From the NCBI GenBank assembly GCA_017643585.1, contig JAEPND010000013.1:1-64000 (forward strand): a stretch of DNA of 64,000 bases, given 5' to 3'. The notes beneath the pieces are model-generated. The model was not told where the DNA came from. It saw only the letters and a program-made list of their open reading frames with translations, and searched no databases. Both the position numbers and the translations under genes were made by a program. Below, in pieces: positions 23,085 to 26,331 of the stretch. Source of the DNA: Maricaulis sp. (GTDB lineage Bacteria; Pseudomonadota; Alphaproteobacteria; Caulobacterales; Maricaulaceae). How positions within the stretch are numbered: the stretch's first letter is position 1; each line of letters opens with the position of its first letter.

Positions 23085-24263
23085 TCAGACCGGTTCAGCC
23101 AGACCGAATGCGAACAGGCGGCCGATGGTCGCCTGTTGGTCTTTTTTCTCAAGGTTGGCGAAGGTCGCGAGGCTGATTTCGCCCCCGTCCAGCAAGGTGT
23201 GAAGACCCGGCTCGGCCTTGGCCGGGAAACGGATTTCGCCGCCGGATGTGATGATCACAATCTCCTCGCCGTCCTCGGCCAGGCGCCACGGCGTATTCTC
23301 CCTCAGGCGATAGCGGACATCGGGATCCGTCGGTGTCTTGAAGTTTGCAATCCGTCCCGGTGTGGACGGGAGGCGGGACTGGATGAAGTTGTCGACATAG
23401 ATATGGAAAGCTTCGTCGAGGTCGGCTTCCTTGGCGAAGGTCGAGACCAGTTGCTTGAAGTGCGGGCGCACGCTTTCCATGTCGAAATCCGGGCGCGCAA
23501 AGCCAACTGGCAATGATTGGCGGAATTCCGGGTGGCGGAGCGCGACTTCCGAGATGACCTCCAGCATCAGGTCCGCCCAGGTCTTGACGATAAGGCCCAC
23601 GGTAATGTGCAGCGAGGCTTCGTCGCCATGTGTCAGCGCGTCGTGCATCAGACCGCGCGGGACATAGGCGCAATCGCCCGCTTCCAGGACAAATTCCTCG
23701 ACCGGGTCACCGATCTCGTGGTCGCCTGACCGGAAGCCTTCACCCCGGAAGGGTTTGTCGACGGGCGTGTCGTAGAGGCGCCAGGATTTCGAGCCGGAGA
23801 CCTGCAGCACGAAAACATCATGGTCATCGTAATGCGTCTTGAAGCCCTGCGCGTCCGGCGGGGTGAGGTAGATATTGGTCTGGACATGGCAGGACAGGCG
23901 GGATTCCAATGCCCGGCAAAAATCAGCCAGGGTGGCGTCGACTTCGTGTAACTGAGGCAGGATCAGCGTGGCGCCTTGCTGGAATTGGCGCGCGACCGCG
24001 CCGCGGTCGATGGCGCCGGAGTTAAACGTGTAATCCTCGCGATTCACCGGTGGATCAGCGCGGGTCATGTCCAGCGAGCCGGGTTGGAAATTTATGCTCG
24101 AAACGAGTTCGTCGATGCGGTCGATGGACAATAGGTCGCGATACCGATTGCGGTCCTGGTGTTTGCTGACCAGAGCCTTGCGTTCGTGGTATTGTGCAAA
24201 GAAATCCTCTGCGGAGACCGGGTCGAACAAGTAACCAAATACGTCCTTGGCCCAGGGTTTCAT
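23085..24263 (-). CDS. cupin-4/JmjC-type 2-oxoglutarate oxygenase (ROXA-like)
   Basis: The 392 residues match the cupin_4 family, which includes E. coli ROXA (YcfD, arginyl hydroxylase of ribosomal protein L16) and the human histidyl hydroxylases MINA53 and NO66. The iron ligands are visible: H144 and D146 in THYDDHDVFVLQVSG, and the distal His in PRGLMHDAL near residue 207. SGSKSWRLYD provides the conserved strand with 2-oxoglutarate contacts, and a helical dimerisation plus winged-helix-like C-terminal half follows. The most economical assignment is a ribosomal oxygenase. It is also the last gene on the strand after three Gly-Arg repeat proteins, which makes them alternative candidate substrates. 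A terminator separates it from them. Confidence 0.82.
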   Translation of the reverse strand: MKPWAKDVFGYLFDPVSAEDFFAQYHERKALVSKHQDRNRYRDLLSIDRIDELVSSINFQPGSLDMTRADPPVNREDYTFNSGAIDRGAVARQFQQGATLILPQLHEVDATLADFCRALESRLSCHVQTNIYLTPPDAQGFKTHYDDHDVFVLQVSGSKSWRLYDTPVDKPFRGEGFRSGDHEIGDPVEEFVLEAGDCAYVPRGLMHDALTHGDEASLHITVGLIVKTWADLMLEVISEVALRHPEFRQSLPVGFARPDFDMESVRPHFKQLVSTFAKEADLDEAFHIYVDNFIQSRLPSTPGRIANFKTPTDPDVRYRLRENTPWRLAEDGEEIVIITSGGEIRFPAKAEPGLHTLLDGGEISLATFANLEKKDQQATIGRLFAFGLAEPV

Positions 24264-24322
24264 CTGCTCACTCCCCCTATATTGATATGATCATCTAAGC
24301 GCGGATCCGTCGCGCACGCACG

Positions 24323-24360
24323 AAAAAAGCTTCGCGACAGATCGTCGCGAAGCTCTTTTT
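24323..24360. terminator. bidirectional intrinsic terminator after Tat-repeat gene A
   Basis: A 10-bp perfect stem (GCTTCGCGAC at 24329-24338 with GTCGCGAAGC at 24344-24353) has A6 on the left and a T-rich run on the right, so it ends minus-strand transcription from the repeat gene. It lies 60 bases before the cupin-4 start, so that gene needs read-through or its own promoter. Confidence 0.85.
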
Positions 24361-24378
24361 AAACAGGGTATTGCTTGT

Positions 24379-25008
24379 TCAGCAGCGCCCGCGACCGACT
24401 GGGTCGGCGTAGGAGCCGGTGTCCGCGTCCGTACAATTGCGGCTGCCGCGTCCTCCGCCAACCGGATCCGCATAAGAGCCGGAATCGCTGTCCGTTACAC
24501 CGGAGCGGCGACCGCCGCGTCCACCACCCACGGGATCCGCATAGGAGCCGGTATCGCTGTCGGTGATCCCGGAGCCGCCACGACCGCGGCCCGCTGGGTC
24601 CGCATAGGAGCCGCTGTCGCTGTCAGTGATGCCGCTGCCACCGCGACCATTGCCAGCCGGATCCGCATAGGAGCCGCTGTCGCTGTCAGTGATGCCCGTG
24701 CCGCCGCGTCCGCCACGGCCCCCGCCAACGGGATCCGCATAGGAACCGGAATCAGCATCGGTGATACCGGTGCGACCACCGCCGCCACGGCCATTGCCTA
24801 CCGGGTCAGCGTAGGCGCCGGAATCGGCGTCGGTAATGCCGGAACGATAACCGCCCCCGCGACCGCCGCCGACGGGATCATAGGGGTCAGAGTCTGTATA
24901 GCCCGTGGTCGCGCAAGCGCTGACAACGCTGCCGGCGCCGAGCGTCAACGATCCACCGGCGACTTTGACCAGGAAGGAACGACGACTGATTTTTCCGCGT
25001 TTTGCCAT
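24379..25008 (-). CDS. Tat-exported repeat protein A (probable lipoprotein)
   Basis: I do not recognise a named family. The 209 residues from the ATG at 25006-25008 begin with a twin-arginine signal (SRRSFL and a Gly/Ala/Val-rich core) that ends in VSAC, an acceptable lipobox, so the protein may be a Tat-exported lipoprotein. The remainder is eight repeats of about 18-24 residues with the core TDSDSGSYADPxGxGRG. Asp spacing DxDxGxxxD recalls thrombospondin type-3 calcium loops lacking the fifth-position Asp, and every repeat ends in Gly/Arg. The last residue is Cys. Two shorter paralogues lie directly upstream with the same N terminus (MAKxGKxSRRSF). A role as a calcium-binding, surface or modified-peptide protein is inference. 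Confidence 0.75.
   Translation of the reverse strand: MAKRGKISRRSFLVKVAGGSLTLGAGSVVSACATTGYTDSDPYDPVGGGRGGGYRSGITDADSGAYADPVGNGRGGGGRTGITDADSGSYADPVGGGRGGRGGTGITDSDSGSYADPAGNGRGGSGITDSDSGSYADPAGRGRGGSGITDSDTGSYADPVGGGRGGRRSGVTDSDSGSYADPVGGGRGSRNCTDADTGSYADPVGRGRC
24382..24905 (-). repeat. in-frame tandem repeats of gene A
   Basis: About eight tandem units of 54-72 bases, all in one reading frame, encode the TDSDSGSYADP-type repeats. Units 4 and 5 are nearly identical at DNA level, which suggests recent duplication. Unit length differences come from in-frame variation of the Gly/Arg linker. Confidence 0.8.
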
Positions 25009-25025
25009 GACAAGTATCCCAAAAG

Positions 25026-25057
25026 AAAAACGGACTCCCGGCATGCCGGAAGTCCGT
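25026..25057 (-). terminator. intrinsic terminator after Tat-repeat gene B
   Basis: Read on the minus strand, a stem of ACGGACT plus CCGGC with its complement is followed by TTTTTC. It starts 11 bases past the stop of gene B and lies just ahead of gene A, so each repeat gene is separately closed. Confidence 0.8.
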
Positions 25058-25068
25058 CAAACCACTGA

Positions 25069-25602
25069 CTAGTAGCGGCGCGAGCGTCCGCGACCAGCCG
25101 GGTCGGCACAAGAGCCGGTATCGCTGTCCGTGGTGCCGGGCTGAACATGCCCGCGTCCACGTCCACCCGGGTCGGAGCACGATCCTGAATCCGAATCCGT
25201 CGTGGAACCGCGCCCATTACCCGCTGGATCGCTCGGATCGCTGTCGGTGAGGCCTGAACGTCCGCGGCCATTGCCGACCGGATCGCTTGGATCACTGTCG
25301 GTCAGGCCGCTGCGTCCGCGGCCATTGCCAACGGCGTCGCTCGGATCACTGTCTGTGATGCCGCTGCGGCTGCCGCGACCATATCCACCGCGGTCAGCGT
25401 TGGAACCGCCATCGCTGTCGGTGATGCCCGTGCGGCCGTAGCCGGAACGGTCGGCGTAAGTCCCGCCGTCACTGTCCGTACGACCGGTGTAATTCTGTGC
25501 AACGGCACCGCCGGTTACCAGTCCGACGGCCCCCGTGGCTGCGACGCCACCTGCGACACTCGTCATGAAAGATCGACGGCTGAGTTTGCCCTTTTTGGCC
25601 AT
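25069..25602 (-). CDS. Tat-exported repeat protein B
   Basis: This 177-residue paralogue starts with MAKKGKLSRRSFM, a Tat signal that ends in a normal signal peptidase I site (AVAQ) rather than a lipobox, so the mature protein should be soluble in the periplasm or secreted. Seven repeats follow. The first two keep the long form (TDSDGGTYAD), the middle three are shortened to TDSDPSDPVGNGRG, and the last two replace Tyr with Cys (TDSDTGSCADPAGRGR). Function is unknown. The repeat core, Gly-Arg ends and export route are shared with genes A and C. The gene is bracketed by terminators. Confidence 0.75.
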   Translation of the reverse strand: MAKKGKLSRRSFMTSVAGGVAATGAVGLVTGGAVAQNYTGRTDSDGGTYADRSGYGRTGITDSDGGSNADRGGYGRGSRSGITDSDPSDAVGNGRGRSGLTDSDPSDPVGNGRGRSGLTDSDPSDPAGNGRGSTTDSDSGSCSDPGGRGRGHVQPGTTDSDTGSCADPAGRGRSRRY

Positions 25603-25660
25603 GTCCTACTCCCAATAAAGTGGCCGAGCCTCACAGGCCCGGTTTCCCTCGCAAGATCAA

Positions 25661-25692
25661 AAGAAAACGGGGCGGTTGTGCTGACCGCCCCG
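25661..25692 (-). terminator. intrinsic terminator after Tat-repeat gene C
   Basis: On the minus strand CGGGGCGGT and its complement (25668-25676 with 25684-25692) form a 9-bp stem followed by TTTTCTTTT. It lies 13 bases beyond the stop of gene C. Confidence 0.85.
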
Positions 25693-25705
25693 GATTGCTG
25701 TGGCT

Positions 25706-26038
25706 CTATGCCGGGCCGCGACCGCGTCCGGCCGGGTCGGCGCAAGCGCCGCCATCACTGTCGGTGAAGCCGGTGTTTCCGCGGCCATAACCGGACGAGT
25801 CGGCGCAAGAGCCGCCATCGCTGTCGGTCACGCCGGTATAGCTGGAGCCGTGGTTCGCGTAGTCATTCGGGTCGCTGTCGGTGATACCGGTGCGCGCTGC
25901 CGCATCAACCGGATCCGCATCAACGGAACGCTGAAGCATCGTCGCCCCCGCAACTGCTGCTACTGTACCCGTGGCGATCGTTCCGCCTGCAACGCGAGTC
26001 AGGAATGAGCGACGGCTCATCTTTCCCTTTTTGGCCAT
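25706..26038 (-). CDS. Tat-exported repeat protein C
   Basis: This is the smallest paralogue, about 110 residues from the ATG at 26036-26038, which follows GGGGAG. The N terminus MAKKGKMSRRSFL is a Tat signal with a hydrophobic Gly/Ala/Val core. Only three repeats follow: a degenerate first (TDSDPNDYAN), then two Cys-containing ones (TDSDGGSCAD and TDSDGGACADPAGRGRG). It is the first gene of the group in the direction of transcription and has a long AT-rich upstream region that is the best place for the promoter. Function is unknown, as for the other two. Confidence 0.72.
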   Translation of the reverse strand: MAKKGKMSRRSFLTRVAGGTIATGTVAAVAGATMLQRSVDADPVDAAARTGITDSDPNDYANHGSSYTGVTDSDGGSCADSSGYGRGNTGFTDSDGGACADPAGRGRGPA

Positions 26039-26331
26039 GTTAGTCTCCCCAGAAGCCTGTCGACCGCCCGAAACAGGCCGAATACGCTGCGAAAACACTA
26101 CGCGCGGGAGGCGAGGAGAGCAATGAAAACCTCAATAAATAAAAGGCCTATAAATCAATGCAGTAGATCCATATCATGCGAATGAATTGCAAGAAATATG
26201 AGAATGAAAATCAATAAGCTGCGACTTTTGCGCGCATAACCGGTTTTGCTTCGCCACTTAACGGTTTGTCAGTGATGTTCACGCCTTGTTCTCGGGCGCG
26301 GACCAGTGTTTAGTCACCGCGGGAGGCTGTC
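26039..26331. other. divergent intergenic region between Tat-repeat gene C and ruvC
   Basis: This 293-base stretch is clearly AT-richer than its surroundings in its central part (26120-26220). It must carry the promoters for the repeat genes (leftward) and the ruv operon (rightward). A 20-codon open frame (26123-26185) follows a GAGGAGAG element and could be a leader peptide or chance. I see no convincing hairpin or repeat, and no -35/-10 pair that I would assign with confidence. Confidence 0.5.

Follow-up and report, generated by a model that had tools for sequence, protein, structure and literature searches.

Gene content of the locus

We analysed a 64,000-nucleotide stretch of a Maricaulis sp. 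contig (JAEPND010000013.1, positions 1 to 64,000; hereafter the window), in which three genes for aspartate-rich repeat proteins, here named C, B and A, are followed on the minus strand by the gene for a JmjC/cupin-4 oxygenase. Gene C (positions 25706-26038, 110 amino acids) leads the run, followed by B (25069-25602, 177 amino acids), A (24379-25008, 209 amino acids counted from MAKRGK) and the cupin gene (23085-24263, 392 amino acids), which encodes the putative modifying enzyme. The open reading frame (ORF) listing bears out the coordinates and lengths given for these four genes in an original prediction made on the sequence, and the N terminus MAKxGKxSRRSF that C, B and A were said to share was confirmed. 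The eight repeats assigned to A and the seven assigned to B, which combines long and short units, were also right; the figure of about three for C comes from a count by eye. B is 59% identical to A. The plus-strand genes flanking the run are tkt and ruvC, ruvA, ruvB and further genes, with names assigned by eye from the translations. The closest named record is a Maricaulis metagenome-assembled genome (MAG) with a cupin 94% identical to that of the window (L161), and the cultured strain Maricaulis maris DSM 4734 also has the locus (L165).

The cupin matches the Pfam family JmjC_2 (PF08007, E=4.9e-29, 100.9 bits against a cut-off of 22). Its structure model (predicted local distance difference test score, pLDDT, 92.9) has a NO66-like fold, with a TMq of about 0.75 to NO66 (4ccn), about 0.73 to MINA53 and about 0.54 to YcfD. 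NO66 is also closer in sequence (E=5e-32) than the YcfD-like protein of R. marinus (4csw, E=9e-5), and the YcfD-type L16 arginyl hydroxylase is not the nearest solved relative. The iron triad, H-x-D with a distal H, had been described as intact; it is, and it is invariant across sets of 14 and 29 aligned members. The protein is a member of the JmjC/cupin-4 family of 2-oxoglutarate (2OG)-Fe(II) oxygenases by sequence, and 2OG-dependent hydroxylation is its predicted activity. In the PHROG database the cupin only was matched, to families of unknown function.

Pairing of the repeat genes with the cupin clade

The repeat genes and the cupin genes co-occur almost perfectly in three overlapping genome draws, as the original prediction had proposed to check. 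Among 61 relatives, a set that includes the window's own genome and was searched with B and with the cupin, repeats occur in 26; the same 26 and one further genome, G020, have a strong cupin match (E<1e-90). In G020, the cupin begins at base 3 of the contig. In all 26 repeat-bearing genomes no more than about 260 bp separate the cupin from a repeat match, and five other relatives have a weaker cupin only (1e-11 to 1e-26) and no repeats. For the class, 385 evenly drawn genomes were searched with profiles built from 14 cupins (A1) and 14 repeat proteins (A3). The profiles found the cupin at E<=1e-80 in 12 genomes and the repeats in 11, all within the 12; in the remaining genome, G260, 52 bp lie between the cupin match and a contig end. 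The next best cupin match in this draw was at 4.5e-52 (27 genomes in all at 1e-40), and 373 of the 385 had neither gene at the thresholds used. A draw of 398 genomes of the phylum had the cupin at E<=1e-60 in eight, every one with repeats. A ninth repeat match (G560, E=4.8e-4 in an 883-amino-acid frame, no cupin at E<=1e-10) was weak and came without a cupin, and we took it as false; it still stands as 'repeat only' in the Fisher test.

Fisher tests gave 2e-20 for the class, 6e-16 for the phylum and 2e-16 for the relatives, values that are indicative because the draws overlap and the genomes are related, so that independence is overstated (the window's genome is in all three draws; G042, G302 and G382 are in both the class and the phylum draws). 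Each search scored just a few candidates per genome, and the cut-offs for the cupin, 1e-80 and 1e-60, were placed at a visible gap.

Judged by eye, the contexts of the pair vary and include tkt/ruvC, crotonase/cysK, an epimerase, gyrA/uvrA and rpsD, and in Paracoccaceae/Roseobacteraceae loci and four genomes of family f27 the partner is on the opposite strand. One relative (G005) has a second repeat and cupin pair (L071:993-6734) near a gene that looks integrase-like. Its second cupin groups with that of an Erythrobacter locus (L208) with a support of 100, and its repeat protein resembles by eye that of the same locus; we conclude that the two genes were transferred together.

The original prediction had weighed chance proximity as its alternative, given a terminator between A and the cupin. 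The hairpin with a T run is present there (24328-24354; reported by the scan for the plus strand, while the minus-strand RNA of the gap also folds, z -3.15). Hairpins of this type lie in 12 of 51 partner-cupin gaps, yet the pair persists, and we reject chance adjacency on the strength of the three genome draws. A related explanation is that the cupin is a ribosomal-protein hydroxylase whose repeat neighbours are there by chance or by synteny. Its nearest solved relatives are NO66, MINA53 and YcfD, and the tkt-ruvC context is common to several genomes. However, the two genes stay adjacent in the remaining contexts, whichever strand the partner is on, and the near-perfect co-occurrence in three draws, with neither gene in 373 of the 385 class genomes, makes this explanation very improbable.

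The gene pair is real and widespread. The co-occurrence, the adjacency across contexts and the joint movement of one pair indicate that the repeat proteins are very probably substrates of this cupin clade, and the two genes very probably encode enzyme and substrate. We are confident, short of certainty, that the cupin acts on the repeats.

The prediction had also named repeat genes that occur commonly without a nearby cupin as evidence to the contrary. Some do lie far from the cupin in the genus, but the same genomes have their clade cupin elsewhere. We read 11 such regions in the genus and its sister genus (L073-L083); leader-plus-repeat ORFs are clear in five (L074, L075, L078, L081 and L082) and weak in L080, and the cupin search lists none there. 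Because these genomes have a cupin elsewhere, modification in trans is possible. Some of the five clear regions adjoin gatC/gatA-like or molybdopterin-like genes, as judged by eye.

Breadth of the clade

A contig scan yielded at least 569 confirmed relatives, and the loci named here are the best 80 of them. A partner with a D-x-D motif, usually with a Tat-like (twin-arginine translocation) leader, lies beside the cupin in 75 of the 80. Partner-bearing loci belong to Alphaproteobacteria, Gammaproteobacteria, Acidobacteriota, Myxococcota, an uncultured delta proteobacterium and one Bacteroidota MAG. Among the 80, three have no partner beside the cupin (L180, L195 and L238) and two are cut by contig ends (L201 and L231); L235 and L240 are near-duplicates. 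Two loci from Chloroflexota (L170 and L212) encode cupins at least 95% identical to proteobacterial ones (L196 and L216) and are probably binning errors.

In a tree made by a quick method, with the long branches OG_L099 and OG_L063 dropped, one branch (support 97) has 82 clade members on one side and, on the other, ten plasmid cupins together with 15 JmjC_2 proteins from outside the clade. The number of changes needed to separate the clade from the outgroup was two in the first tree and one after these branches were dropped. Beside nine weaker JmjC_2 loci (L152-L160) there is no gene with at least three TDSD-type motifs, in a search that other partner types would escape. Plasmids searched with B gave no match. 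A defence or phage role has no backing either: PADLOC had no match, and PHROG matched the cupin alone, as noted above.

Leaders and repeats

The repeat proteins have no Pfam or NCBIfam model above its cut-off and no PHROG or PADLOC match at E<=0.01. A leader with RR or KR is present in 72 of the 75 partners; two of the others are cut by a contig start and one is a segment without a leader. An extra leader motif of the type LxDDxI occurs in 18 partners. The leader of A has a lipobox-like VSAC (by eye). In the repeat regions from 92 proteins, cysteine accounts for 1.1% of residues. B folded on its own has a mean pLDDT of 41.8, as a disordered chain would give, although a single-sequence model is weak evidence. 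In four loci of Sphingomonadales type (L188, L192, L193 and L224) several repeat paralogues stand in tandem, and in some of them a long Glu/Ser-rich spacer precedes the repeats.

Candidate target residue

Aspartate outnumbers glutamate 1574 to 117 when one protein is counted per locus, and D-x-D is present at least once in 75 of 75 partners and at least twice in 73. Repeat units were anchored on D-x-D, so that two aspartates are given by construction and the third is the informative one. It lies at +8 from the first in 407 units and at +5 in 177, which together account for 584 of 636 units, and both spacings occur within B itself.

The original prediction suggested that the repeats, each ending in Gly-Arg-Gly, could be substrates of the cupin. 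On this reading the enzyme would hydroxylate the arginine in every Gly-x-Gly-Arg-Gly, as YcfD does on L16. Arginine is conserved in 92% of the 407 long units and in 79% of the 177 short ones, and 65 of the 75 partners contain the dipeptide GR more than once. Among the JmjC_2 relatives with a solved structure is an arginyl hydroxylase of L16, and another JmjC enzyme, BipG, is reported to act on a ribosomal precursor by hydroxylating ornithine (PMC12707348). However, by the same account BipG is inactive on arginine, and the window's enzyme is closer to NO66 than to YcfD. GxGR/Q recurs twice or more in only 57 of the 75 partners (18 have fewer than two), and GR occurs fewer than two times in ten. 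Partners without repeated GxGR include a gammaproteobacterial SDSDSSDQSGR type, an acidobacterial DPDKK type and a Bacteroidota type of Asp, Ser and Tyr. The partner at one locus (L222), which ends in SDPIGEGSDYDPNDPIGGGSDTDPVDPIGEGTDYD, has no Arg, Lys or His after the leader, whose end we set at 28 residues past RR. The genome of this locus has a second pair (L151) whose repeats do have GRG, and the L222 enzyme could have its own specificity. As a general target, the arginine of Gly-Arg-Gly does not hold across these partners, and we regard arginine hydroxylation as doubtful. Given that the cupin acts on the repeats, we lean towards aspartate, rather than arginine or another residue, as the residue modified.

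A plasmid of S. clavuligerus (L286:5784-7179) carries a 48-amino-acid ORF directly upstream of a JmjC cupin gene. The ORF contains two D-x-D-P-x-D-P units (DNDPSDP and DPDPFDP), no RR leader and no arginine, and its SLEPDEI resembles the LxDDxI-type leader motif described above. The cupin is 31.7% identical to that of the window and branches next to the clade rather than within it, at a weak support of 29. Because this small ORF has the aspartate pattern without arginine or an RR leader, the aspartate triad may predate both GRG and the Tat-like leader. Viral contigs searched with this ORF gave no relative.

Fur-like boxes and iron-uptake neighbours

Two Fur-like boxes lie upstream of C on the minus strand. 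The first, TGCAATTCATTCGCA (26177-26191), is 153 nucleotides from the gene and scores 14.0 with a motif whose weights were set by hand after a first consensus scan. The second, TGATTTTCATTCTCA (26199-26213), is 175 nucleotides from the gene and overlaps the best match to the 19-bp E. coli Fur consensus, at 14 of 19 positions, which 0.45% of shuffles reach. With the hand-set motif, 13 of 20 upstream regions (from the window, the genus and G025) score at least 14, against a shuffled mean of 0.0; among operons of the genus and its sister genus that have gene C, 12 of 13 do so, and G025 has a perfect TGATAATGATTATCA. With the plain, untuned 7-1-7 pattern of E. coli, six of the 20 reach 11 of 14 (shuffled mean 0.2).

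Across lineages, 15 of 55 upstream regions score at least 14, as against 8 of 323 for other genes, in a scan that omitted upstreams shorter than 100 bp and partners off the cupin's strand. Five gammaproteobacterial-type loci (L184, L182, L174, L196 and L170) match 15 to 17 of the 19 consensus positions. The window's genome has three exact sites of a related pattern, of which one lies 43 bp before a TonB-receptor-like gene and the other two are not before genes judged iron-related, all by eye. On these matches the operon is probably Fur-repressed.

Among the 80 loci, genes for PepSY_TM proteins lie beside six, TonB receptors beside five (L170, L184, L196, L239 and L237), and FecCD with Peripla_BP_2 beside one (L186). 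Neighbours were called by Pfam search for L184, L186, L237 and L239 and by similarity cluster for the others, in flanks of at most 5 kb. The gene set next to some gammaproteobacterial loci is like HiuABC of Caulobacter crescentus, which comprises a Fur-regulated TonB receptor, a PepSY protein and a small membrane protein; that paper (PMC13001220) contains neither the word oxygenase nor the word hydroxylase, and its consulted parts mention no repeat protein. A small protein of about 135 amino acids with a hydrophobic N-terminal stretch is encoded next to four pairs of gammaproteobacterial type (L170:1419-1829, L174:3803-4207, L184:3998-4411 and L196:3693-4103). It has no Pfam match (L170) and no NCBIfam match (L184 and L196), and may correspond to HiuC.

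Some role of the pair in iron or metal handling is favoured by a small margin of belief. Alternatively, the modified repeats could bind calcium or another cation, or form an adhesive or surface-coat protein, with no role in iron. The long units follow D-x-D-x-G-x-x-x-D, which we take to resemble D-x-D-x-D-G loops; B appears disordered in its model, and 40 of the 55 upstream regions tested lack a Fur-like box. However, the two aspartate spacings, both found in B, are ill-suited to a rigid loop, and part of the family repeatedly shows Fur-like boxes and iron-uptake genes. We consider this alternative unlikely.

A proposed modification and export system

Given the pairing, the repeat anatomy and the putative regulation, we tentatively propose a system resembling those of ribosomally synthesized and post-translationally modified peptides (RiPPs), in which the cupin beta-hydroxylates aspartates of Tat-exported, iron-binding repeats; this full combination is plausible, if somewhat short of probable. 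The oxygenase would recognise the leader-bearing repeat proteins in the cytoplasm and add hydroxyl groups, most likely to the beta carbon, to aspartates within the repeated D-x-D...D units, and the modified chains would then leave by the Tat route. A would probably be a lipoprotein, and B and C soluble. As the operon is probably Fur-repressed, it would be made under iron scarcity, and the product would be a periplasmic or surface iron binder. Since most units have three aspartates, one ferric site per unit is conceivable, to which three beta-hydroxyaspartates could supply the three bidentate arms. In its strongest form, which we put forward as a speculation and think unlikely, the product would be a ribosomally encoded ferric chelator, each hydroxylated three-aspartate unit serving as a hexadentate iron site, much like a siderophore, from which TonB/PepSY uptake would be supplied.

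Several observations weigh against this proposal, beginning with the frequency of arginine in the units and of repeated GR in the partners noted above. The solved cupin-4 relatives act on arginine or histidine of ribosomal proteins, not on aspartate; FIH, for which aspartate hydroxylation is reported, is a JmjC enzyme at a greater distance. The Tat signal described in the original prediction stands in part: the SRRSF motif is clear, but the bit scores to the NCBIfam model TAT_signal_seq (TIGR01409) are 16.1, 12.1 and 13.1 for A, B and C against a cut-off of 16.7, A just under it and B and C lower. Because these scores miss the curated cut-off, the Tat assignment is based on the SRRSF motif. 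The 15 upstream regions with Fur-like boxes are a minority of those tested and include near-duplicate loci, and none of the upstreams from Erythrobacteraceae and Acidobacteriota that were tested scores at least 14. Iron-uptake neighbours are few, with near-duplicates counted (L170 and L196 are near-duplicates, and L174 and L175 are close). The window has no iron gene adjacent to the run, and the region upstream of C is shared with a divergent gene taken for ruvC.

The RiPP-like arrangement appears as a putative ribosomal precursor gene beside that of the modifying enzyme at 75 of the 80 loci, and as a conserved leader followed by a variable, repeated core. Such a system would work as a RiPP with a signal-peptide leader by analogy with bufferins, but with a different enzyme, export route and core. 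Bufferins are small exported ribosomal precursors with a signal peptide that are modified before export and have a metal-related function; as far as the sections consulted describe them, they depend on a multinuclear non-heme iron-dependent oxidase (MNIO), have Cys-based cores and a Sec signal, and are concerned mainly with copper (PMC12452194). In contrast, the system in the window has a JmjC enzyme, aspartate repeats, a Tat-like leader and probable iron as its metal; its enzyme belongs to JmjC_2 rather than to MNIO (DUF692), and there is no Cys core. BipG, of biphenomycin biosynthesis, is a JmjC oxygenase that acts on a ribosomal precursor, but it gamma-hydroxylates ornithine, not arginine, in a short core, and the consulted sections mention neither signal peptide nor repeats (PMC12707348). 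NO66, MINA53 and YcfD share the Pfam domain and fold of the cupin; their substrates, in the source portions consulted, are His or Arg of ribosomal proteins, whereas the present clade is paired with repeat proteins that are probably exported.

We found no description of the enzyme-repeat pair in the literature searched for JmjC or cupin enzymes with a Tat-type precursor, none of a cupin that hydroxylates arginine in a RiPP, and none of a siderophore-type beta-hydroxyaspartate hydroxylase tied to a RiPP; most subscription papers were outside these searches. The pairing points to a likely substrate for a large clade of bacterial cupin-4 oxygenases, whose plasmid relatives are annotated just as 'cupin domain-containing protein', and to a post-translational hydroxylase tied to a Tat-like leader. 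It further raises the prospect of an iron ligand carried on a protein, which would differ from both siderophores and bufferins.

Expression of the run and related plasmid loci

Folding of the minus-strand RNA places a hairpin with a T run after each of C, B and A. In addition to the attenuator or terminator in the gap between A and the cupin, these lie after B (25029-25058, z -5.49) and after C (25668-25692, z -2.17), both on the minus strand. Such a hairpin is present in 12 of 51 partner-cupin gaps and in 0 of 46 control gaps; the control gaps were defined by ORFs that we picked ourselves, and not all of these need be genes. Hairpins in these gaps would fit the production of more substrate than enzyme. 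A scan for sigma-70-type promoters found none.

The S. clavuligerus plasmid locus also contains genes for an S9 peptidase and an ATP-binding cassette (ABC) transporter nearby, and is likely a small RiPP cluster. Four further loci on Streptomyces plasmids (L288, L289, L290 and L292), and also L291, have an ORF of 43-49 amino acids just upstream of a JmjC cupin gene. These small ORFs end in SDGND (SDMNDT in L292), and in four of the five sets an annotated aldo/keto reductase comes next, with none listed for L291. A similar unannotated end, GDGND, occurs in L293. Together, the small ORF and the cupin look like another uncharacterised precursor-enzyme set. Another Streptomyces plasmid (L294:1166-3691) carries two tandem JmjC cupin genes by genes for a major facilitator superfamily (MFS) transporter and an M13 metallopeptidase.

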